From Gammaproteobacteria bacterium (GTDB lineage Bacteria > Pseudomonadota > Gammaproteobacteria > Pseudomonadales > Cellvibrionaceae), in assembly GCA_005801205.1 (NCBI GenBank), contig SYDJ01000144.1, positions 1-35,576 of the forward strand: a DNA stretch of 35,576 nt, given 5' to 3'. A program made the translations under genes and the position numbers. Below the pieces are notes generated by a model. The model ran no database searches, was not told where the DNA came from, and worked only from the letters and a program-made list of their open reading frames with translations. How positions within the stretch are numbered: position 1 is the first letter of the stretch; every line of letters begins with the position of its first letter. This document shows, in pieces, positions 265-10,345 of the stretch.

Positions 265-341
265 GGGCCTATAGCTCAGTTGGTTAGAGCATCCGACTCA
301 TAATCGGCAGGTCCCCAGTTCAAGTCTGGGTGGGCCCACCA
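265..341 (+). tRNA. tRNA-Ile2 with CAU anticodon (lysidine-type)
   Basis: A 77-nt cloverleaf with acceptor stem GGGCCTA/TGGGCCC (one T-G pair), D-loop AGCTCAGTTGGTTAGAGC, anticodon loop CTCATAA with CAT at 299-301, T-arm CCCAG TTCAAGT CTGGG, and an encoded CCA end at 339-341. CAT could be Met or Ile2. The acceptor stem and T-arm resemble gammaproteobacterial tRNA-Ile2 rather than elongator or initiator tRNA-Met, and the position after rpoD matches ileX in E. coli. C34 would then be modified to lysidine by TilS to read AUA. The outermost anticodon-stem pair (T292-C308) is a mismatch, which is slightly unusual. Confidence 0.92.
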
Positions 342-352
342 TATACAGCAAG

Positions 353-386
353 GCTTTCAAGGTAAGCACCCGCTTATCTTGAAAGC
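353..386 (+). terminator. Stem-loop downstream of tRNA-Ile2, probable transcript end or processing hairpin
   Basis: A 15-bp stem, GCTTTCAAGGTAAGC with GCTTATCTTGAAAGC (one G-U pair), closes a 4-nt loop (ACCC) 12 nt after the tRNA CCA end. There is no T-run after it, so it may act as a 3' boundary or RNase site rather than a classical intrinsic terminator. The remaining bases up to 526 show nothing else recognisable. Confidence 0.6.
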
Positions 387-526
387 AAATTGCAAAATCA
401 CCGTAAGTAAGGTTTTGGAAGTCTGCAGCCTCCCCGTGCACGCGTCTCGCAATACCCTAACTCATAGGCAGCCAAAACCCCAAGTTAATCGCTTGAGGCC
501 TCTCTCGAAATTAAGCCTTGCATTAA

Positions 527-883
527 TTAGCCCGCCCGCAACAGCTCAAGCTCATGGTCAATAGCTTGAACCACTAAATCGTTTATAGACTTGGCTTGCT
601 TGCCTACATACATGGCAAGCTGAAGGTGGCGTTCTTGGCCTATACGTATGTTAAAACTACCTTTGCAGGGTTTTTCAGGCTCTATTCTGTCTTTAGCACA
701 ATCAGCCAAATAATCTTCTACTGCACCTTCAAAGGCAGCTTGAAGCTCTGCCAAGGTTTGCCCCTCATAACTTACCAGCGGGCGAATGTACTCTAGCTTG
801 CCATACAGACAATTATCTTCAATGCTAGCGACAATGGAGCCGTAGTAGCCCTTGTGGGTCATTAATTCGTTTTTGCCTGCCAT
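527..883 (-). CDS. hicB: HicB-family antitoxin
   Basis: A protein of 118 aa. Residues 1-70 match the HicB N-terminal domain, a degraded RNase H-like fold (MTHKGYYGSIVASIEDN..., then EGAVEDYLADCAK). Residues about 75-115 look like a ribbon-helix-helix DNA-binding tail (FNIRIGQERHLQLAMYVGKQ, then SINDLVVQAI). In HicAB modules HicB binds and blocks the HicA ribonuclease and represses its own promoter. The ATG overlaps the TAA of a hicA-like reading frame just upstream (shared bases within TAATG), which is the usual hicA-hicB order. That partner lacks a normal start region, so this may be an orphan antitoxin. Confidence 0.85.
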   Translation of the reverse strand: MAGKNELMTHKGYYGSIVASIEDNCLYGKLEYIRPLVSYEGQTLAELQAAFEGAVEDYLADCAKDRIEPEKPCKGSFNIRIGQERHLQLAMYVGKQAKSINDLVVQAIDHELELLRAG

Positions 884-1060
884 TACAGGTAGCCCCCTAA
901 TTTCAGTTTCTCGATAACTTGCGCTTTCACGTAGCGTTTTAATTCATTGCTTGGGTGTGGCTTATGGAGGTTAATCATTTCTTCTGGCTTGCCATTGGTA
1001 AACTTTACCCGCGAACCACTGTTTACACCTAGGACAGTTTTGGATTTTCTGACATTGAGA
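883..1060 (-). pseudogene. hicA: hicA toxin remnant, C-terminal part only
   Basis: Reading the minus strand into the TAA at 883-885 gives ...GSRVKFTNGKPEEMINLH followed by KPHPSNELKRYVKAQVIEKL and then KLGGYL. This is the C-terminal half of a HicA mRNA interferase, including the GS-x-x-x-F strand and the HKPHPSNELKRY segment typical of the double-stranded-RNA-binding-like fold. Upstream the frame stays open for only about 40 codons before a stop and has no ATG, GTG or TTG in a sensible place, and the expected N-terminal helix is not recognisable in any frame. I read it as truncated or frame-disrupted. A non-canonical start cannot be fully excluded. From 1061 to 1236 I see nothing else. Confidence 0.65.
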
Positions 1061-1236
1061 TGCCACGCTGAATACTGAGTGTGAGCAAGTATTTAATTAG
1101 AGTGCCCATAGCACGTACGATAAGCTGTATAAAGCAATGCTCTAAAGCCAATGCGCATCACGCTATTGAAGGCAACGCCATAGCGCGCACATAATTCAGA
1201 CCACATCCCCACCCATCCCCCATCAAGGAGTTAACC

Positions 1237-1665
1237 ATGGCCAGCACACGACTAGAACCTTATTTGTTTTTCAGCGGGCACTGCGAAGAAGCACTGGCGT
1301 TTTACCGCACAGTCTTAGGCGCAGAAGTGACCTATATGATGCGCTACAGCGACAGCCCAGAAGCCACACCACCAGGTATGCTCGCCCCGGGCTTTGAAAA
1401 TAAAGTGATGCACGCTACTTTCACCATAGGTGGCAACACACTTATGGCATCAGATGGTTGCGATGACAAAACAAACTTCAGCGGCTTTAAGCTTTCGCTC
1501 TCACTGCCAACCCAAGCAGAAACTGAACGCGCGTTTAATTTATTAGCCGAAGGCGGCAGCATACAAATGCCACTCGCAAAAACCTTTTGGTCGCCCAGCT
1601 TCGGCATGCTCACAGATCGTTTTGGGCTGGGGTGGATGGTGAGTGTTGAGGATGAGCAGGGGTAA
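1237..1665 (+). CDS. VOC-superfamily protein of the PhnB/YjdN type
   Basis: A protein of 142 aa preceded by a clear ribosome-binding site (AAGGAG, 1225-1230). It starts with the pattern typical of the PhnB-like '3-demethylubiquinone methyltransferase' domain: YLFFSGHCEEALAFYRTVLG, then GFENKVMHATFTIGGNTLMA, and ends FGMLTDRFGLGWMV. The fold is a pair of beta-alpha-beta-beta-beta units (glyoxalase/bleomycin-resistance superfamily). Despite the family name, most members have no proven methyltransferase activity and their substrates are unknown. The gene stands alone: a terminator follows, and the upstream gene points away. Confidence 0.85.
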   Translation: MASTRLEPYLFFSGHCEEALAFYRTVLGAEVTYMMRYSDSPEATPPGMLAPGFENKVMHATFTIGGNTLMASDGCDDKTNFSGFKLSLSLPTQAETERAFNLLAEGGSIQMPLAKTFWSPSFGMLTDRFGLGWMVSVEDEQG

Positions 1666-1697
1666 GCTCAATAAAGCTAGATAATTTTTTAGCGCTT

Positions 1698-1735
1698 AAA
1701 AAGCAGATTAAAAATTTGATCTGCTTTTTGCTTTA
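1698..1735 (+). terminator. Rho-independent terminator of the VOC gene
   Basis: A perfect 11-bp stem, AAAAAGCAGAT with ATCTGCTTTTT, closes a 10-nt loop and is followed by GCTTT. It begins 32 bp after the stop codon. Confidence 0.85.
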
Positions 1736-2002
1736 ACGCGTGCGCCCCTCAATCTCTGCATTTAGAGAGTCATACAATAGCCAATTCGCGGCAGTATGAA
1801 TAACCTCGTTAGGCTGACGACGGGTTTTACCGTTAAGCACACGCATTCAAACAACCAATACCCTCCAACCTTTTGAATACACTCAGTATGTGGCGATAAA
1901 ATACCGCTCTCGCAATATCAATGCGTAAAGCCCGTAATCGCACCCTGGAATTAGTAGATAATCCTGTTATTCTAAGACCCTCTATTTTTTTCTTTTTCTT
2001 AT
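1736..2002. other. Intergenic region at the left edge of an AT-rich block
   Basis: No reading frame, RNA gene or convincing repeat is visible. Base composition becomes clearly AT-richer towards 1980-2002, where a T-rich run leads straight into the methyltransferase start without a Shine-Dalgarno sequence. This probably marks the left boundary of the acquired restriction-modification-like block. Confidence 0.4.
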
Positions 2003-3550
2003 ATGCGCCCTCAAATCAAAATCATTGACCTTTTCGCTGGCCCAGGAGGCTTAGGTGAGGGCTTTTCAGCTCTTGTAGATGAAAAAGGTCATCACCCTTT
2101 TTCAATTATTGCGTCTGTAGAAGCAGAAGAAAGCGCACACAAAACATTACAGCTTCGTGCTTTTTTTAGAAAATTTCCCAAAGGAAAAGTGCCCGAAGAA
2201 TATTATCAGTATGTTCGCGGTGAGATTAAGCGTGAAGAACTATTTGCCGCATACTCAGATGAGGCAAAAGCGGCGATTGAAGAAACGCTGGAGAAACCTA
2301 GAATTCTAGGTGAAGATAATACTTATATAGAAAAAGAAATAAAACAGCGATTAAAAGACTACGATGGAAAGAAAGTTGTTATTGGCGGCCCACCATGCCA
2401 AGCCTATTCATTGGTTGGTCGTGCGCGCAACATGGGAAAAACTGACTATGTAGCTAAAGATGACCACCGCCACTTTCTTTACAAAGAATACCTTAACATT
2501 CTTAACATCGTTGAACCGGATGTGTTTGTTATGGAAAATGTAAAGGGTATTTTGTCTGCCACAATTGATGATGAAAAAATATTCCCAAAAATTCTTGAAG
2601 ACCTTAAAAACCCCAGCAAAGCATTAGGCAAACGCGGAAAAAGCAAATACAAGATTTATTCACTGGTAAGGCCAGCTAATGATCCGCTAAATCCAAACTA
2701 TGAAAATATTTCTGACTTTGTTATTAAAGCAGAACAGTATGGTATTCCACAGGCCAGACACAGAGTAATTCTTCTTGGAATAAGAGAAGACAACACCACC
2801 ATCCCATCGATTCTTCAAACCACAGAGCAAGTTAATATTGAAGATGTAATTGGTGACCTTCCCCCATTGAGAAGCGGATTATCAAAAGGCGGAGACGATG
2901 CTGAAAAGTGGAATAGCGTAGCATCTGAAATATTCAAAGAAATGCCACGCCAATTGAAAAACAGTGGTCATGCAAAATTAGCGAAAAGAATAAAAGCTTT
3001 GCAGGCCAACAAACTGAAGAACTTACAACGCGGTAACATATTTTACGCATCCGAAATCACGACAGAGATGAGCGCACCAGAAGAACTCAAAACCTGGTAC
3101 AAGGATGAGAAAATTAAAGGTGTACTTAATTATGAAACCAGAGGTCATATAGTTACAGATTTGGCACGCTACCTCTTTTGTGCTGCATTTGCAGAAGAAA
3201 ATAGTGACCGTGAAAACCCAAACCCAAAAGCTCAGGAGTTCCCAGAGTTTTTAGCACCGAATCATAAAAATTGGGAATCTGGGAAATTTGCAGATCGGTT
3301 TCGGGTGCAAGCGAAAGGCAAATACGCAACCACAATAACTAGCCACATTTCAAAAGATGGGCACTATTTTATTCACTATGATCCACAGCAATGTCGCAGC
3401 CTTACTGTTCGTGAAGCTGCGCGCATACAAACATTTCCTGACAATTATTTTTTTGAAGGAAATCGAACTCAACAGTATGTTCAAGTTGGAAATGCCGTAC
3501 CTCCTTTTCTCGCAAAGCTAATTGCAAAAATAGTGCATGAAGAAATGTAA
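2003..3550 (+). CDS. C5-cytosine DNA methyltransferase (Dcm-type)
   Basis: A protein of 515 aa with all hallmark motifs in order: motif I DLFAGPGGLGEGF (9-21, S-adenosylmethionine binding); motif IV GGPPCQ (128-133, catalytic Cys132); motif VI ENV (178-180); motif VIII QARHRV (250-255); motif IX RSLTVREAARIQTFP (465-479); and motif X QVGNAVPP (494-501). About 200 residues between VIII and IX hold the target-recognition domain. An unusually long insert (about residues 50-120) separates motifs I and IV. It methylates C5 of cytosine in a specific DNA sequence that cannot be predicted here. The gene is AT-rich and ends 2 bp from the end of the convergent GHKL-ATPase/nuclease gene, suggesting a joint restriction-modification or defence role. 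The upstream region is T-rich with no Shine-Dalgarno sequence, so the start is likely but not certain. Confidence 0.95.
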   Translation: MRPQIKIIDLFAGPGGLGEGFSALVDEKGHHPFSIIASVEAEESAHKTLQLRAFFRKFPKGKVPEEYYQYVRGEIKREELFAAYSDEAKAAIEETLEKPRILGEDNTYIEKEIKQRLKDYDGKKVVIGGPPCQAYSLVGRARNMGKTDYVAKDDHRHFLYKEYLNILNIVEPDVFVMENVKGILSATIDDEKIFPKILEDLKNPSKALGKRGKSKYKIYSLVRPANDPLNPNYENISDFVIKAEQYGIPQARHRVILLGIREDNTTIPSILQTTEQVNIEDVIGDLPPLRSGLSKGGDDAEKWNSVASEIFKEMPRQLKNSGHAKLAKRIKALQANKLKNLQRGNIFYASEITTEMSAPEELKTWYKDEKIKGVLNYETRGHIVTDLARYLFCAAFAEENSDRENPNPKAQEFPEFLAPNHKNWESGKFADRFRVQAKGKYATTITSHISKDGHYFIHYDPQQCRSLTVREAARIQTFPDNYFFEGNRTQQYVQVGNAVPPFLAKLIAKIVHEEM

Positions 3551-3552
3551 AT

Positions 3553-5409
3553 TTATTTTTTTATCTGATCGTACATATCTATAAATTCGCGATGATATTG
3601 TTTTGACTGTTCAAGTAGCTCTCTATATGTCTTAACAAAAACCTCACCGGATTTTTCATAAGTTTGTAACTTACTTTGAAACTTACTATCAGATGATTTC
3701 TCACCGCCTACGACATAACAAACCACCGTAGAGAAACCAGAACCAGTAGCAAATTTATCCTTTAGGAAATGCTGATACTCCCAGGCTTGCTCAAGAGCTT
3801 TCTGATCGACTTTATATTTACTTCTTTTTATTTCTATAACGTACAACACCCCTCCCAGCGCATTACTACATAAAAAGTCGATTCTTTTATTTTCTGGCGG
3901 CTGATCCGACTCCAGAAAGCTTTCGGAAAGTAATTTTGAATAGGTTACTTCGTCTCTAAACTCTAATATCCGTGGATCTAAAAGCCAAGAAAACTTCTTT
4001 AAGAAATTATGCAATGTCGGCACCTCCTTGGTATCCATATTCAAATGCTCTTCGAATTTTGTTATTACCTCAATCCTAGCCAAAGCCAAATCACTAATTT
4101 GCTTAGCTTCAATTGCTTTCCAGTCATTCAACAAATCTAGAAACTTTCCAATGTGTTCGGGATCTATATTATCAGCTATTTTAGAGGCGTAATCTTTGAA
4201 AACCTTATTGTCAAATTTATCTATCACATTTGAAATTATTCTTTCAGATTCATCAACACTAATATCAGAATTTTCTAATATAGGGTTAATGATTTTCTGA
4301 CTCAACTCGCGTTCATATGTAGGCATGCCACTCTGCCACTTAAGGATATCTATTTGACTCTTTTTTTCTATATTTTCTTGTTTCAAGCGTGCCCTCTTGA
4401 TTTTCCACTCCCCGCCTATTTTTCTAATTATTTTTTGTAAGTAAGTCTGCAACTCTTTTGTAACATCATGCTCCCAGTTTAGAGAATGCCTATCTGTCGA
4501 TATCAAATCCTCATCCACCTCATCAATAAAGTCTATTTCTAAATATCCAGTAACATAACTATGGAACTGATCTGTATCTCTCAATCCGTAAAAGTCAGCC
4601 ACGTTAACTATTTTACCTCTCGACGTGAGATAAATTCCTTTCATCTCTGTATCTTTAACAGGAGTATCAAGAGTAAATATTTTTCCTTTTATTTTATCCC
4701 AATTTTTATACTCAACCCCAAACTCTACTTTCGGAAACTCCCATTCAAACTGTTTAAGAAAACCATCATACTTCAGCTCATTTGATATCTCTAATGGGTC
4801 AACGCCATTGTGCCTCAGCTCAACCCTAAGAGCATCAAATATAAGGAATTTTTTTGACAAGCCATGAGCTATGTCTGACGTACTAAATTTAGATTTACGT
4901 TTTACATCTCTTAGCCATATTTCAGTCCCATTATTTTTTTGTACTGGAATATTGTGAGATATTATTTTCGGCTTATACGAATTAGAACTTGCACTCTTAA
5001 TATCCTTAATATGCATTGAAAATCTATTTTCTATGCCATCTTTAACAGTACAAATTTCTACCTCATTACATATACCAAAAACAGCTAACTTTCCAAGCCC
5101 CTTTTTTCCAATTGCGCTTCTTCCCTTCGGAGTAAGGCTTGCACCTTGTCGACGCCTATTTCTACCTATTAGCAAATATTTTTCGTTAAGCTCTGAAAAA
5201 GTCATACCCATACCATCATCAGAATAGTAAATTTCTTTAATCTCACCTTGATCTCTAAAATCTATATTAATTTCATCTGAATCAGCATCCCATGAATTAG
5301 ATATTAACTCTGATATCACACTTGGCAACTTTGAATACAATGAAATACCCAAGTGTTCGATAGTATTAGGATCAAATTTAAGTATTAGTTCGGTTGTTGA
5401 CATATTCAT
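3553..5409 (-). CDS. MORC/MutL-type GHKL ATPase fused to a PD-(D/E)XK-like nuclease domain
   Basis: A protein of 618 aa from the second possible start. I chose this ATG because AAGGA sits 7 nt upstream, whereas the longer frame starts inside an inverted repeat with no ribosome-binding site. Residues 20-170 hold a Bergerat ATP-binding fold: E34 and N38 in SELISNSWDAD, D64-x-G-x-G in DDGMGM, and GKKGLGK (101-107). A transducer-like S5 region follows (K/R-rich, ISTDRHSLNW). After a helical middle, the C terminus has RIDFL (D511) and VIEIKR (E526, K528), then QAWEY (541-545). That is a D-x14-E-x-K pattern of a PD-(D/E)XK nuclease, reminiscent of DUF4263/Shedu proteins. MutL/MORC-like ATPases next to C5 methyltransferases are known from comparative genomics as parts of restriction-modification systems. 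I infer an ATP-dependent restriction subunit; the nuclease assignment is less sure than the ATPase. Confidence 0.8.
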   Translation of the reverse strand: MNMSTTELILKFDPNTIEHLGISLYSKLPSVISELISNSWDADSDEINIDFRDQGEIKEIYYSDDGMGMTFSELNEKYLLIGRNRRRQGASLTPKGRSAIGKKGLGKLAVFGICNEVEICTVKDGIENRFSMHIKDIKSASSNSYKPKIISHNIPVQKNNGTEIWLRDVKRKSKFSTSDIAHGLSKKFLIFDALRVELRHNGVDPLEISNELKYDGFLKQFEWEFPKVEFGVEYKNWDKIKGKIFTLDTPVKDTEMKGIYLTSRGKIVNVADFYGLRDTDQFHSYVTGYLEIDFIDEVDEDLISTDRHSLNWEHDVTKELQTYLQKIIRKIGGEWKIKRARLKQENIEKKSQIDILKWQSGMPTYERELSQKIINPILENSDISVDESERIISNVIDKFDNKVFKDYASKIADNIDPEHIGKFLDLLNDWKAIEAKQISDLALARIEVITKFEEHLNMDTKEVPTLHNFLKKFSWLLDPRILEFRDEVTYSKLLSESFLESDQPPENKRIDFLCSNALGGVLYVIEIKRSKYKVDQKALEQAWEYQHFLKDKFATGSGFSTVVCYVVGGEKSSDSKFQSKLQTYEKSGEVFVKTYRELLEQSKQYHREFIDMYDQIKK

Positions 5410-5460
5410 AAATAATTCCTTGTTTAAAAAATAACTCACCCATAAGTGAGTACAATTAAT

Positions 5461-5483
5461 TGACATAAATATTTCTTATGTCA
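5461..5483. promoter_or_regulatory. Inverted repeat upstream of the GHKL-ATPase gene
   Basis: TGACATAA and TTATGTCA form perfect 8-bp arms around a 7-bp AT-only-but-one spacer, 51 bp upstream of the chosen ATPase start. The position suits an operator. No controller (C) protein gene is visible nearby, so the binding partner is unknown. Confidence 0.4.
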
Positions 5484-5610
5484 TTAAAAGTAACTTTTCG
5501 AAAGCACCGAGAGCAAAAGTAAGATCAATGCACTTTAATATTTTTCTTTTAACACGCACAGAGCGATTGTGCCTTAGTAATATGCAATTTGGAAAATACA
5601 GCCTATTACA

Positions 5611-6018
5611 TCAACCAATTGTTAGCTTCGCCAACAATTCATCTGTAGCCTCCAACAATTCGGCAAGCAAGGTTTCATCTACATCCATATAACCTTCATA
5701 TTCAGCTAAATTACGACGCTCATGACAAAGGCCAAATACTCGCACCTGCGTTTTATTAACGCCCGCAGTGTGCACTAAACATTGAAAGACTAGATAACGC
5801 TTATCTGAGCGATAACCCTGTTGGCGCAACGCATATAAGGCAAGCGCATGCGCGGCGTTATAGGCTAAATCAAAACGGCTGGCAAATTTGAGTTGGTTGT
5901 TATGAGCATCTTGCAAACGATCAATTGCGCTGCGCAATAAGCCTGCTGATTCATTGGCATCTGGCGGCTCTTGTTTAAGCCCGCCCGTTTTTACTAGGCT
6001 TTCTAAAAACTCACTCAT
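5611..6018 (-). CDS. HEPN-domain protein, partner of the MNT nucleotidyltransferase
   Basis: A 135-aa all-helical protein. A helix with FDLAYNAAHALALYALRQQG and a later HERRNLAEYEGY segment match HEPN proteins that pair with nucleotidyltransferases, probably the SAV_6107-like group. Classical HepT toxins carry R-N-x3-H-x-Y as the RNase site. Here the equivalent stretch reads RRNLAEYEG without the histidine, so canonical RNase activity is doubtful. The gene starts 14 bp after the MNT gene stop, with GGGAG upstream, so the two are surely co-transcribed. In such pairs the HEPN protein is the toxin or effector and the MNT protein neutralises it by transferring nucleotides. I infer a toxin-antitoxin role with moderate confidence. 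Confidence 0.7.
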   Translation of the reverse strand: MSEFLESLVKTGGLKQEPPDANESAGLLRSAIDRLQDAHNNQLKFASRFDLAYNAAHALALYALRQQGYRSDKRYLVFQCLVHTAGVNKTQVRVFGLCHERRNLAEYEGYMDVDETLLAELLEATDELLAKLTIG

Positions 6019-6032
6019 GGTGATTAATCTCC

Positions 6033-6650
6033 CTATAGGTTATTTACTGAATCAACCTCACCAACAAGGTTAATTCGTGGTTGCTCCATGACTCTGACCA
6101 AAAAATGATTACCGCCGCTGAGTTTAGTTTGAAAATCTTGCGGTGTGTAGAGGGTGGGGTTAATTGTGCGGCCAAGGCTTTCTTCTGCTGCGGCTAGCAA
6201 CTCCATAACGCCGCCGTAAGCTATATCGCTGCCCACCAACATTAAATCTATATCGCTTGCAGAGGTGGCCTCACCTTTAGCGATGGAGCCGTAAATAAAA
6301 GCAGTTAGAAGCTTGCCGGAGAGAGGCTGAAGAGCGTCTTTAATAAGATCGGCAATGCCGAAGGTCTTGCGTGCTATGGCCGTTAGCTCATGGAAAATGG
6401 GGTTCTGGCTGTTAGCCTGATAGTGATTCTGGTTTCCCTGACGTGAGAGCGTAATCAAGCCTGCGCTATGAAGCCGCTCCAGCTCCCTCATAACTGTACC
6501 CTTACCCAAACCAGCGCTGCGCACAATTTCATTGGCAAAGAAGCTTTGATTCGGCCTACCAAACAGCAAGCCAATTACCTTTTGCTGGGTTTTGCTAAAG
6601 AGCGCATCGCTTACCGTTATTGCTTGATTTGCTATTACTTGATTTGTCAT
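6033..6650 (-). CDS. Winged-helix/MNT-type nucleotidyltransferase (HEPN partner, likely autorepressor)
   Basis: A protein of 205 aa with two domains. Residues about 15-80 form a winged helix-turn-helix (QQKVIGLLFGRPNQSFFANE, then GLGKGTVMRELERL). Residues about 105-190 form a minimal nucleotidyltransferase with GSIAKGEATSASDID: G121-S122, then D133 and D135, an exact GS-x10-D-x-D motif. MNT antitoxins of this class modify their HEPN partner (AMPylation in characterised MntA-HepT pairs). The added winged helix suggests that the same protein also represses its operon. A sigma-70-like promoter embedded in a long palindrome lies directly upstream (6668-6711), which fits autoregulation. Confidence 0.8.
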   Translation of the reverse strand: MTNQVIANQAITVSDALFSKTQQKVIGLLFGRPNQSFFANEIVRSAGLGKGTVMRELERLHSAGLITLSRQGNQNHYQANSQNPIFHELTAIARKTFGIADLIKDALQPLSGKLLTAFIYGSIAKGEATSASDIDLMLVGSDIAYGGVMELLAAAEESLGRTINPTLYTPQDFQTKLSGGNHFLVRVMEQPRINLVGEVDSVNNL

Positions 6651-6667
6651 TGCACAACCGCCACAAG

Positions 6668-6711
6668 AGTCCCAATTTGGGTACTATAGGTACCAAATTG
6701 GGACTTTTCAA
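6668..6711 (-). promoter_or_regulatory. MNT/HEPN promoter inside a palindromic operator
   Basis: On the minus strand TTGAAA (6711-6706) and TATAGT (6688-6683) are separated by exactly 17 bp. The perfect 13-bp arms AGTCCCAATTTGG (6668-6680) and its complement (6693-6705) flank the -10 box. Binding of a dimeric repressor here would block the promoter. The winged-helix MNT protein encoded 18 bp downstream is the obvious candidate. The promoter match is seen in the sequence; the regulator is inferred. Confidence 0.65.
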
Positions 6712-6736
6712 GTTTTTTGGCTGATTTATGTATTGT

Positions 6737-6812
6737 CATGTTCGAAAAATCGGATTTTTTGTACATGAGAATCTGCTTATGTCGAAAAAATCGTGTTTTT
6801 CGAACATGAGAA
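6737..6812. repeat. Two tandem near-palindromic units
   Basis: Two units of about 34 bp, 6737-6771 and 6779-6812, align with each other directly and in reverse. Each is a near-palindrome with CATGTTCGAAAAA-type arms; the left arm of unit 1 and the right arm of unit 2 are a perfect 13-bp inverted repeat. A smaller palindrome CATGAG-N6-CTCATG follows at 6804-6821. They lie midway between the divergent MNT/HEPN and hipBA operons and could be operators or a small structured element. Confidence 0.55.
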
Positions 6813-6862
6813 ATTGCTCATGTTTGTTGCGTGTACGTAAAGTAAATATCCTGCATCATTCA

Positions 6863-6934
6863 TTTTGATGCATATATTCATCATTTGTATTGAATATAGT
6901 ATTTTTGATGTATATATTCATCATTATTGATAAT
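6863..6934 (+). promoter_or_regulatory. hipBA control region: two GATG-N8-CATC operators and a probable promoter
   Basis: A 23-bp direct repeat occurs at 6863-6885 and 6903-6925 with one mismatch. Each copy contains an inverted repeat GATG-N8-CATC (6867-6882 and 6907-6922), with centres 40 bp apart, about four helical turns. The 8-bp spacing of half-sites is like that of E. coli HipB operators, although the half-sites differ. TTGATG (6905-6910) and GATAAT (6929-6934), with an 18-bp spacer, form a plausible promoter overlapping the second operator. It would give a very short leader before the hipB start at 6949. Confidence 0.55.
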
Positions 6935-6948
6935 AGATAGCAACCATT

Positions 6949-7215
6949 ATGACAATGCCCTTGGAACAACTCGGTCAACAAATTAAAGCCCTACGCAAGC
7001 AAAAGGGCTGGAGTCAGTTACAGCTTGCTGAAATGGCTGGGCTTGATAGAACAACGGTGGGCATGCTCGAACGCAATGATTACAACGATATAGGTATACG
7101 CAAGGTGCAGCGAGTTGTAGAGCTGCTGGGTAAAAAGCTAACACTTGCCAACACAGGTTTGCCAACGCTGGATGATTTGGTGGCAGCGCAACGAGAGGAA
7201 TCTCACCATGGCTGA
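6949..7215 (+). CDS. hipB: HipB-like XRE-family antitoxin/repressor
   Basis: A protein of 88 aa. Residues 8-65 are a Cro/CI-type helix-turn-helix (LGQQIKALRKQKGWSQLQLA, then GLDRTTVGMLER), followed by a short tail. It lies directly upstream of, and overlaps by 8 bp, a HipA-like kinase gene, which is the standard hipBA arrangement. Repeated GATG-N8-CATC sites in front are its likely operators. No clear Shine-Dalgarno sequence precedes the first ATG, and a second ATG lies two codons later. HipB proteins bind and inhibit HipA and repress the operon. Confidence 0.85.
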   Translation: MTMPLEQLGQQIKALRKQKGWSQLQLAEMAGLDRTTVGMLERNDYNDIGIRKVQRVVELLGKKLTLANTGLPTLDDLVAAQREESHHG

Positions 7216-8431
7216 GGTTGATGTTTTTGTTAATCGCCAACTTGCTGGGCGACTTGCACGTACCCAAGTGCGCCATGGGTTTACCTATGGGCTTGATGCA
7301 CCCGAAGCATTGTCTTTAACAATGCCATTGCGGCTTGAGAGTTATATTTACGAGCAAGGCTTGCATCCATTATTTCAAATGAATTTACCCGAGGGTTATT
7401 TGCGTCAAGCCATTGAGCGAGCCGCTGCAAAACATTATGGCAGCGATGACATGACTTTTTTAACGCTCTTGGGCAATCACCAAATTGGCCGTTTGCGTTA
7501 TACCCTTGCGAATAATCCCCTGCCTGAAACGAACCTGACTACTCCCGCCTTGGATGAAATACTTAATAGCGATGATGCCGAATTATTTGACCATCTATTG
7601 AATATCTACGCATTGCAATCAGGCGTTGCAGGTGTACAACCTAAAGTGCTTATGGATTTACGCAATGAAATTGATGGCATTAACCCTATTATCAATAAAA
7701 CTACATTGCCATTAAAAAAATATATTGTTAAAAGCTGGGGAAGTGAGTTTCCGCAATTAGCCTGCAATGAATTTTTTTGTTTATCGCTTGCGCAAGCTTC
7801 GGGTTTAACTACACCGAACTTTCACCTTAGCAATAACGGCAAATTATTAATTTGTGAACGCTTTGATATAGACGAACATGATCAACCGCTGGGTTTTGAA
7901 GATTTTTGTGTTTTACAAGGCAGAACAACTCAAGCGAAATACGACTCAAGCATTGAAGCCTGCACCAACACCATTCGCCAATATGTTTCGCAAGAACTTC
8001 AACAAAAAACATTTGAAGACTTTTTTAAGCTGACATTGCTTAATATTAAGATTAAAAATGGCGATGCACATTTAAAAAACTTTGGTGTTTTATATAACAA
8101 CCTTGAAAGTTATCGTGCTGGACAAACGCCTGACAGCAACCGTAAATTCGCACCGGTTTTCGATTTGGTTAGCACCACACCCTACATCCCCAACGATTCC
8201 ATGGCGCTCACCTTAACTGGAACTAAACGTTGGCCAAAATGGAAAGTACTGGATAAGTTCGCCAAGACCCATTGCGGCCTAAACAATGCAAGAATTGAAC
8301 AGATTGTTAATGATGTTGAAAAAGCGTGTGAAAGCCAAAAAACACTCTTAACAGACTTGGCAAAAAAACATCCTGACTTTTCGCCTATTGCAGAAAAAAT
8401 AGACACCTTGTTGAACAAACCATTTCTATAA
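7208..8431 (+). CDS. hipA: HipA-family serine/threonine kinase toxin
   Basis: A protein of 407 aa. I chose the ATG at 7208 because GAGAGGAA lies 9 bp upstream and the coupling overlap with hipB is typical. Residues 1-100 match HipA subdomain 1 (YGLDAPEALSLTMPL, QMNLPEGYLRQAI). The kinase core has the glycine-rich-loop region SGVAGVQPKV (138-147), ICERFD (215-220), LQGRTTQAKY, the catalytic loop NGDAHLKNF (284-292, Asp286) and the metal-binding FDL (Asp319). All key residues appear intact, so an active kinase is expected. E. coli HipA phosphorylates glutamyl-tRNA synthetase and causes growth arrest; the target of this protein is unknown. A short hairpin follows the gene. Confidence 0.88.
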   Translation: MAEVDVFVNRQLAGRLARTQVRHGFTYGLDAPEALSLTMPLRLESYIYEQGLHPLFQMNLPEGYLRQAIERAAAKHYGSDDMTFLTLLGNHQIGRLRYTLANNPLPETNLTTPALDEILNSDDAELFDHLLNIYALQSGVAGVQPKVLMDLRNEIDGINPIINKTTLPLKKYIVKSWGSEFPQLACNEFFCLSLAQASGLTTPNFHLSNNGKLLICERFDIDEHDQPLGFEDFCVLQGRTTQAKYDSSIEACTNTIRQYVSQELQQKTFEDFFKLTLLNIKIKNGDAHLKNFGVLYNNLESYRAGQTPDSNRKFAPVFDLVSTTPYIPNDSMALTLTGTKRWPKWKVLDKFAKTHCGLNNARIEQIVNDVEKACESQKTLLTDLAKKHPDFSPIAEKIDTLLNKPFL

Positions 8432-8439
8432 AAAATAAT

Positions 8440-8463
8440 GCCGCTCGACATAAGCGGCTTTAT
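8440..8463. terminator. Weak bidirectional terminator between hipA and the GH13 gene
   Basis: GCCGCT (8440-8445) and AGCGGC (8453-8458) form a 6-bp GC-rich stem with A-rich sequence before and TTTATA after. It lies between two convergent genes and could serve both. Confidence 0.55.
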
Positions 8464-8488
8464 ATCCAACCAGCCATACCACATTTAC

Positions 8489-10345
8489 TTACAGCTCTAT
8501 CACCATTGGCGTCATAGCTTTTAAGCTCAACCCTTTGGATAAATCCAATATCTCACCCGTTAAAATATTTTTTCCGCTCGTTTTCCCTTTAATCATGGCT
8601 TGATAGCGCGCTAAATCTAGTTGTGAATCCTGTGCGTTTTTATTCAGCACCACCATCACAGTTTTTGAATCTGTGTAGCGGAAATAAACGTAAGTGGATT
8701 TTTCTGGTACGTAGTGCATGAGCTTGCCGGTTTTAATGGCATCGCTGGTTTTGCGCCAATTCAATAAGGTTTTTACAAAATCTTGCGCATCTTTTTGCTG
8801 CGCACTTAAACCTTTACCCGTAAAGGCATTGATTTTATCGCCAGCCCAACCGCCGGGCATATCGCTACGCACTGCACCGTCATCGCGTTCTTTAGGGCTA
8901 GTCGCTAACACTTCTGAACCGTAAAAGAATTGTGGAATGCCGCGTGTAGTTGCACTCAAGACCATGGCGTTTTTAAATAAATTTAGATTGCCATCCAACG
9001 CCGAATAAATTCGGCTGGTGTCGTGGTTCTCAGGGAAGACCACCATATGCGCGGGGTCGGCATAAATGAAATCATTGGCGATGGTTTCATAGAGTTTTAT
9101 GAACCCGATAGACCAACCTTCGTTTTCATTAAGTGCACTGCGCATAGCATCATGTACAGGGAAATCCATCATGCTCGGAATATAAGAGACATAACCGTTG
9201 TCATTTTTTTTGCCCTTTTGCCATGAGGCAACAATCGCATGATTAGATGTCCACTCCTCGCCCACAATATTAAAGTTAGGATATTCCTCTAATAGATGTT
9301 TGCCCCATGCTGAGAGGAAATTTTTGTCGGAATAAGAATAGGTATCTTCGCGAATGCCAGAGAGATTGGCATATTCCACCCACCACACCGAATTTTGAAT
9401 TAAATAGGTGGCGAGCAAGGGATTACGTTGATTTAAATCGGGCATGGTTTTTACAAACCAACCATCGCTAAATAATTTTGCATCTTCTGGTGCTGCATGC
9501 GGGTCGTGAATAGCAGTGCGGCGATGCGTTGTTTCGGTGAATTTTTCAGGAAAATTTAACCAGTCTTTAGCGGGCATATCGGCCATCCACCAATGGCCAG
9601 AGCCTATATGGTTAAGCACTATATCTTGAATGACGCCCACGCCTTTTTTATTGGCTGCGGCAACATATTGTTTGAAATCTTCGTTAGTGCCAAAGCGGCT
9701 GTCGATTTTGTAGTGATTAGTGGCGGAGTAGCCATGGTAGGAATACTGCTCTTGATTATTTTCAACCAGCGGCGTTGGCCACACCATGGTAAAACCCATG
9801 TTTGCAATATAATCTAAATGATCTTGCATGCCTTTTAAATCGCCACCGTGACGGCCACCGCTAATGCTGCGATTGAATTTCTCTAGTTGATCCGCTTTGG
9901 AGTCATTAGCAGGATTACCATTGGCAAAACGATCTGGCATAAGTAAATAAATGACATCGCTCGCATCAAAGCCTTTGCGCGCAGCTGAGTTTTTTGCACG
10001 TGCTTCTAATCGATAAACTGCTTTAGTTATGAGTTTATCGCCCAGCTTAAAGGCGATTGTGAATTGTCCGGGTTTGGTGGTATCGGCTAGGCGTAAATTA
10101 ATAAATAGATAATTTTTATTGTCGGTTTTTTCGGTGCCGACCAAGGTGACACCTGCGTAATTTATCTCTGGTGTTAAAGCAGAAATATTTTCGCCATGCA
10201 CCATAAGCTGTAGCTCTGGGTGCTGCATACCTACCCACCAGTTGAGCGGTTCTAGATGTTTTATTTCAAATTCTTTGGCGGATACTTGCAAAGAAAATAG
10301 CATGACTAGCGCTAAGGCGATGATGCTTTGGGATTTAGTTGGCAT
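8489..10345 (-). CDS. Periplasmic GH13 neopullulanase/cyclomaltodextrinase (SusA-like)
   Basis: A protein of 618 aa. A signal peptide (positively charged start, hydrophobic core, cleavage likely after VSA at 23) is followed by an N-terminal beta domain (about 25-115) of the cyclomaltodextrinase type and a GH13 barrel. The four GH13 regions are visible: DIVLNH (241-246); GIREDTY with nucleophile Asp334; VGEEW with acid/base Glu363; and FPENHD ending in His441-Asp442. The last 80 residues fit the small beta domain. It should hydrolyse alpha-1,4 bonds of maltodextrins, pullulan or cyclodextrins in the periplasm. A GGAG ribosome-binding site precedes the ATG by 7 nt. It is the last of three same-strand genes after the TonB receptor and halogenase, separated by a repeat-filled gap. 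Confidence 0.9.
   Translation of the reverse strand: MPTKSQSIIALALVMLFSLQVSAKEFEIKHLEPLNWWVGMQHPELQLMVHGENISALTPEINYAGVTLVGTEKTDNKNYLFINLRLADTTKPGQFTIAFKLGDKLITKAVYRLEARAKNSAARKGFDASDVIYLLMPDRFANGNPANDSKADQLEKFNRSISGGRHGGDLKGMQDHLDYIANMGFTMVWPTPLVENNQEQYSYHGYSATNHYKIDSRFGTNEDFKQYVAAANKKGVGVIQDIVLNHIGSGHWWMADMPAKDWLNFPEKFTETTHRRTAIHDPHAAPEDAKLFSDGWFVKTMPDLNQRNPLLATYLIQNSVWWVEYANLSGIREDTYSYSDKNFLSAWGKHLLEEYPNFNIVGEEWTSNHAIVASWQKGKKNDNGYVSYIPSMMDFPVHDAMRSALNENEGWSIGFIKLYETIANDFIYADPAHMVVFPENHDTSRIYSALDGNLNLFKNAMVLSATTRGIPQFFYGSEVLATSPKERDDGAVRSDMPGGWAGDKINAFTGKGLSAQQKDAQDFVKTLLNWRKTSDAIKTGKLMHYVPEKSTYVYFRYTDSKTVMVVLNKNAQDSQLDLARYQAMIKGKTSGKNILTGEILDLSKGLSLKAMTPMVIEL

Follow-up and report, generated by a model that had tools for sequence, protein, structure and literature searches.

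Does a cytosine DNA methyltransferase gene that converges on the gene of an ATPase-nuclease form a restriction-modification system with it and, if so, of what kind? The question is raised by a 35,576-nucleotide stretch of DNA (the window; contig SYDJ01000144.1, assembly GCA_005801205.1) from a gammaproteobacterium of the Cellvibrionaceae, in which two such genes, here termed M and R, face each other. We propose that M and R probably form a restriction-modification system of paraMORC3 type, in which a widely shared writer of a methyl mark stands beside a nuclease that was exchanged in or out at the site. Gene content, domain matches, conserved residues, a predicted fold and conserved linkage carry this proposal. 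A reading of the sequence alone (the original prediction) had described the pair as a candidate ATP-dependent restriction or defence system; its account of the pair is correct, and the role it suggested is probably correct too. Two outcomes that it named as refuting, a lack of pairing in other genomes and a C-terminal fold unlike that of nucleases, were both checked, and neither was observed. Beyond that reading, named relatives exist (BbrUII/HgiDII, paraMORC3, VcSduA), which makes this a known kind of system; the lineage of M is also found with DISARM, MZA-like and kinase/regulator-like modules. Below, loci are designated L and genomes of the genus G; papers are cited by accession, for the passages drawn on here.

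The two genes and their products

The pair and its domains are as follows.

2003–3550, forward strand: M, C5 cytosine DNA methyltransferase of the long-insert type, 515 residues (PF00145, PADLOC, tree)
3553–5409, reverse strand: R, 618 residues, GHKL ATPase of paraMORC3 type with a fused Shedu-like PD-(D/E)XK nuclease (NCBIfam and Pfam profiles, alignment, models)
4972–5325, reverse strand: GHKL (Bergerat) ATPase domain of R, residues 29–146 (HATPase_c_3; Foldseek matches to HtpG/Hsp90, MORC3 and MORC2)
3556–4104, reverse strand: C-terminal nuclease domain of R, residues 436–618, with D511, E526 and K528 (model with 8ti9 and 8ps5 as top PDB matches; conservation)

Both frames are intact and only 2 bp (3551–3552) separate the stops, and the open reading frames and profile matches agree with the convergent pair first described. 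The frame of R stays open up to an ATG at 5466, and AAGGA just precedes the ATG at 5409. The AT-richness noted earlier is borne out by a G+C content of 0.33–0.40 in the pair versus mostly 0.41–0.51 in other 1-kb intervals. No controller gene adjoins the pair, again as predicted; the helix-turn-helix protein at 6949–7215 gives weak matches to control-protein models (E 6e-8), but is grouped with a HipA-like gene. Promoter- and terminator-like sites did not exceed those in shuffled sequence (10 against 12.5 expected, and 2 against 3.3).

R combines GHKL ATPase motifs with a C-terminal restriction-fold domain bearing D...ExK, the two features by which it was judged a paraMORC3 protein. Its ATPase domain matches HATPase_c_3 (PF13589) at residues 29–146 (E 3.5e-19). 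An alignment of 42 rows, window included, shows no variation at E34, N38, D64, G66, G68, G101, K103, G104, G106, K107, D511 or E526, and conservation of at least 90% at K528; a second set of 37 rows keeps D511, E526 and K528 throughout. These positions cover both the Bergerat residues (E34/N38, D64-x-G-x-G, GKKGLGK) and the D-x14-E-x-K nuclease-like motif that the original prediction had picked out.

The best NCBIfam model for R is the BbrUII/HgiDII family (NF050001; residues 10–617, E 5e-87), a family whose members share with R nearly full-length homology and the order of GHKL ATPase and C-terminal nuclease. All 42 rows match this profile, 26 match HSDR_N_2, eight SduA_C and four NucS_C; the HSDR_N_2 match of R itself (residues 506–566, E 3e-4) lies below the curated cut-off. 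R reaches 293 bits against an equivalog cut-off of 550. When eight other relatives of R were scanned with NF050001, L008, L010 and L097 passed (751–801 bits), each with an adjoining C5 methyltransferase as in the window, and L004, L006, L019, L041 and L061 fell below. By its sequence, R is a paraMORC3 protein, an already known kind, from a clade that is sister to BbrUII and HgiDII, because the family match is nearly full-length yet below the cut-off. M is classed in another subfamily than the methyltransferase of L097, its best segment of likeness to which spans 109 residues at 31% identity. GTCGAC, the site of M.HgiDII (PMC5867850), was rejected as the site of the window pair on both counts, the position of R outside the equivalog and the different lineage of M.

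Structure prediction points to a nuclease-like C-terminus. The AlphaFold2 model of full-length R (mean predicted local distance difference test, pLDDT, 83.0; predicted template-modelling score, pTM, 0.65) has an ATPase part nearest to Hsp90/HtpG, MORC3 and MORC2 in Foldseek; a sequence search of the PDB gave MutL/PMS1 matches (E 0.02 to 0.9). Modelled alone, residues 436–618 (183 residues; pLDDT 83.4, pTM 0.79) match the Bacillus cereus Shedu nuclease domain best (8ti9, E 4e-5), followed by Escherichia coli SduA with DNA (8ps5, E 1e-4) and EndoMS/NucS (E 3e-4). The template-modelling (TM) scores are moderate (0.53 and 0.51) with root-mean-square deviations above 7 (7.3 for 8ti9), so that the model indicates fold kinship with Shedu, not close identity; R gives no SduA_C (PF14082) match at E 0.01. 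The C-terminal profile of R also matches the PDB chains CpcN (8imn, E 6e-9), CpcJ (8iml, E 2e-5) and Glr2806 (9k9w, E 9e-4), with an overlap at positions 123–179; we take these to be cyanobacterial light-harvesting proteins and have no explanation for the shared stretch.

M matches PF00145 (E 3.4e-48), and its best PADLOC model is DrmMII (PDLC02649, E 3e-102). Its long insert had been placed between motifs I and IV, which is correct in part; compared with 410-residue relatives, some of the additional residues fall between motifs VI and VIII or within the target-recognition region (motif numbering assigned by us).

Linkage of R to C5 methyltransferases

The pairing is conserved well beyond the window. 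Methyltransferases around the 80 best relatives of R were found with a local hidden Markov model built from six sequences, and a C5 methyltransferase lies within 3 kb of R in 72 of them, a count that may include enzymes other than the true partner of R, as some loci hold two to four; in 62 the distance is within 200 bp. Of the remaining eight, five have a C5 methyltransferase elsewhere on their contig, at 4–13 kb from R, and in the other three R is near a contig end. L030, L039 and L040 have none in full 6-kb flanks and one 8–13 kb from R, the contig being taken as the same. In L039, R closes a DISARM row, in L040 the methyltransferase is near DISARM, and L030 reads M-Vsr-MzaB-MzaC-MzaD-MzaE-R, so that one M heads both MZA-like genes and R. 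The single relative among 50,697 phage records belongs to Escherichia phage PhiR44_1, where it is annotated ParaMORC3 and converges with Dcm; three stretches of viral contigs matched the search pattern and none encodes a relative of R, in a single-protein query that reaches close relatives only.

R pairs with several methyltransferase types. Within its close clade of 23, an intact long-type M accompanies R in L019, L029 and L032, fragments of one in L021, and one stands in the row of L030; nine have a 410-residue methyltransferase at no more than 3 kb, and L026 and L050 have one at a greater distance; the methyltransferases of L020 and L027 are divergent, those of L014, L018, L022 and L028 low-scoring, and L033 is cut off. 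In the R tree the R of the window groups with that of L014 (98/94), whose methyltransferase is of another type; the R and M trees were built once each, some of their forks are weak, and L006, L020, L027 and L047 form long branches. A variant of R also occurs: in a group of 37 loci that match it in the N-terminal part only, a Ymh/HEPN domain replaces the nuclease in all 14 members scanned. These correspond to the paraMORC-Ymh fusions already described (PMC3710099), which resemble the window pair in a homologous ATPase half and a neighbouring C5 methyltransferase, and differ in that C-terminal domain.

Iyer, Abhiman and Aravind (2008; PMC2292703) described paraMORC3 as a GHKL and S5-like protein with a C-terminal restriction fold, an E-D-ExK motif and restriction-modification neighbourhoods, as in R, and report that paraMORC genes replace MORC in related operons. 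Type II-like systems likewise combine the gene of a DNA methyltransferase with that of a nuclease, as the window does. By analogy, methylation, ATP dependence, cleavage of unmarked DNA and defence would be the properties of the M-R pair: M would write 5-methylcytosine on a specific sequence, R, as a GHKL dimer, would probably close on DNA with ATP, and where the mark is absent its Shedu-like nuclease would cut. GHKL proteins dimerise and clamp with ATP, and Shedu-type domains cut DNA.

Weighing the proposal

Several observations weigh against this proposal. R scores below the NF050001 cut-off, so that the recognition site of BbrUII/HgiDII cannot be transferred to it; no relative of R was found in the 20 other genomes of the genus; and in the genomes of L075 and L080, where R lies at most 1.8 kb from a contig end, no C5 methyltransferase was found. 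Others also bear on rival readings. A subset of nuclease-bearing paraMORC3 genes is reported to stand alone (PMC2292703). VcSduA, a Shedu protein with a GHKL N-terminal domain, has the domain order of R and requires both its ATPase and nuclease residues for phage defence, and the passages of its paper drawn on here (PMC12137116) name no methyltransferase, whereas the window pair is tied to one. Because of these two points, R could instead be a methylation-independent, phage-triggered nuclease like VcSduA, whose GHKL clamp senses phage structure or DNA ends, with M having another role or only damping self-cutting; the modelled kinship to Shedu and the SduA_C matches of some homologues agree with this. 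We consider it unlikely, as linkage to a C5 methyltransferase in 77 of 80 relatives exceeds, in our judgement and not by a formal null, what we would expect of a functionless neighbour. A genome has few such enzymes: in the genus, counting the source of the window, 14 of 21 genomes carry at least one.

The DNA upstream of M bears on a second rival.

1739–1870, reverse strand: vsr (very-short-patch-repair) remnant, interrupted by an in-frame stop and divergent in orientation from M (likeness to the Vsr of G001)

Over 44 residues the remnant shares 73% identity with the Vsr that adjoins M in G001 (E 4e-19, from a comparison with five sequences only). The M of the window probably once had a vsr companion, because this type of M occurs in five further congeneric genomes and has a vsr next to it in all of them. 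Such decay at the locus, the low G+C content of R and its absence from all 20 other congeneric genomes would suit an inactive system in which M is left from an older unit and R is a later insertion, perhaps not matching the site of M. This we judge improbable: the frames of both genes are intact with their conserved residues kept, and long-type M also adjoins intact R in L019, L029 and L032. The assembly raises a third reading, since the window is one contig of a genome in 253 contigs that is 77.5% complete, and the adjacency could be a chimera. Long-type M and R recur side by side in other genomes, however, converging in L029 and L032 as in the window and standing in tandem in L019, and we regard a chimera as highly improbable. 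The restriction-modification reading remains the one we favour.

The M lineage beside other restriction modules

The restriction half beside M varies. In G012, an M 85.5% identical to that of the window occupies the same chromosomal site, with a convergent kinase/response-regulator-like pair instead of R; the DNA match between the two covers 2015–3534, between conserved flanks. Since the half beside M differs between them, sequence comparison indicates that one of the two has been exchanged at this site. Other congeneric relatives of M, among the closest it has, converge on DISARM DrmA/DrmB (G014) or MZA-like genes (G001, G010, G020). G014 and G001 share a 2392-bp vsr-M block at 91.1% identity, their M proteins being 94.7% identical, and the block stops 18 and 27 bp before the stop of M, after which DrmB or AIPR follows. 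Exchange of neighbours, with homology ending at the 3' end of M, is thus a direct observation, and M and R appear to be separable modules. In the window itself, a scan of eight genes from 527 to 8431 gave neither DrmA nor DrmB and no MzaB-MzaC-MzaD-MzaE set; a weak match of R to the MzaB model (E 0.017) is expected of any GHKL protein.

The G012 kinase has 745 residues and two GHKL domains. It and the regulator-like gene beside it gave no HEF_HK or response-regulator Pfam match in the scan, and resemble Campylobacter genes annotated 'sensor histidine kinase' (30%) and 'response regulator' (25%); by its architecture, and by analogy with passages of PMC8011034, the kinase may be labelled HEF_HK.

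A census of this M type covered 23 cases, a non-random sample of six from the genus, three intact beside R, that of L030, one in the genome of L021, the three best plasmid hits and nine that came out of 369 sampled genomes of the class. Twelve adjoin MZA-like genes (some with part of the set seen), one MZA-like genes and R (L030), four R, one DISARM and one the kinase pair, and four have no recognised module beside them, are cut by a contig end or are fragmentary. In the sample examined, the lineage of M therefore sits more often beside MZA-like genes.

In Photobacterium L021, an intact R stands beside a fragmented M, and another contig of that genome bears an intact long-type M, 56% identical to that of the window, with an MZA-like row. 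The intact M could protect against R in trans, if R needs protection. L021 and L030 fit one mark serving two effectors, though neither is proof of it.

Surrounding genes and further observations

The pair lies in a variable region with the following edges.

265–341, forward strand: tRNA-Met, left edge of the variable region common to the window and G012 (ARAGORN; collinear with G012)
8489–10345, reverse strand: amylase of the cyclomaltodextrinase type, outside the system, flanking the variable region on the right (profile match; same position in G012)

From the tRNA to the amylase (265–8489) the distance is 8 kb in the window, whereas it is about 61 kb in G012 and 63 kb, again approximately, in G020. 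Several defence-like genes occupy the stretch in the window. Next to R, a two-gene unit (5611–6650, reverse strand) matches PADLOC candidates: a nucleotidyltransferase with a winged helix (6033–6650) matches PDC-M05A (E 4e-81) and its 135-residue partner (5611–6018) PDC-M05B (E 5e-62). A HipB-like helix-turn-helix protein and a HipA-like kinase (6949–8431, forward strand) adjoin the amylase gene. A HicB-family protein is encoded at 527–883 (reverse strand), and six-frame reading by eye, without a profile search, found no recognisable HicA frame in 861–1240.

Relatives of R have neighbours of their own. In three loci of Bacteroidota, L026 (2221–5937), L050 (2282–5992) and L012 (2328–6005), a protein of 1225–1238 residues directly precedes R; the L050 copy matches PF24389, ORC-CDC6-like (E 1e-22), and the protein may be an extra component. 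In Microbulbifer L014 (5992–7848) and Pseudomonadales L033 (6004–7098), R follows recF- and gyrB-like genes, as judged by eye. L039 (1–7911), with L179, holds a DISARM-like row containing type III Mod- and Res-like genes, with paraMORC3 at the end. Restriction genes of the MvaI/BcnI family in L018 (4418–5833) and of the EcoRII-C family in L028 (7858–9111) lie near a C5 methyltransferase, a Vsr-like gene and paraMORC3, a classical nuclease being stacked with R in each. These genes, and a review in which DISARM is said to mark CCWGG (PMC12926258), give hints of CCWGG as the site of the window pair; we do not claim it, because the L018 and L028 methyltransferases are not among the best matches of M.

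Exchange of effectors around a possibly shared mark

What is new here is modularity, the exchange of effectors around a constant methyltransferase lineage. The passages of PMC2292703 drawn on here describe families by context and do not set out a single methyltransferase lineage accompanied by paraMORC3, DISARM, MZA-like and kinase modules, and in the literature searched, with few subscription journals covered, we found no report of such an exchange. That relatives of M adjoin quite different cutting systems suggests that bacteria can swap the restriction half while keeping the methyl mark. We further propose, at about even odds in our own estimate, that 5-methylcytosine written by this lineage is a shared password read by four unrelated modules, the paraMORC3 nuclease, MZA-like systems, DISARM DrmA/DrmB and the GHKL kinase/response-regulator-like pair, and that the restriction half at the 3' end of the methyltransferase gene is exchanged or stacked without re-marking the genome, the conserved methyltransferase end being the recombination boundary.

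Very similar methyltransferases beside different effectors offer a natural test of the role of methylation in DISARM, MZA and paraMORC3. If the four modules do read one mark, defence modules would be swappable without the cost of a new methylome, and Shedu-type nucleases, whose descriptions mostly concern the sensing of phage or DNA ends, would be tied to self-marking by methylation.

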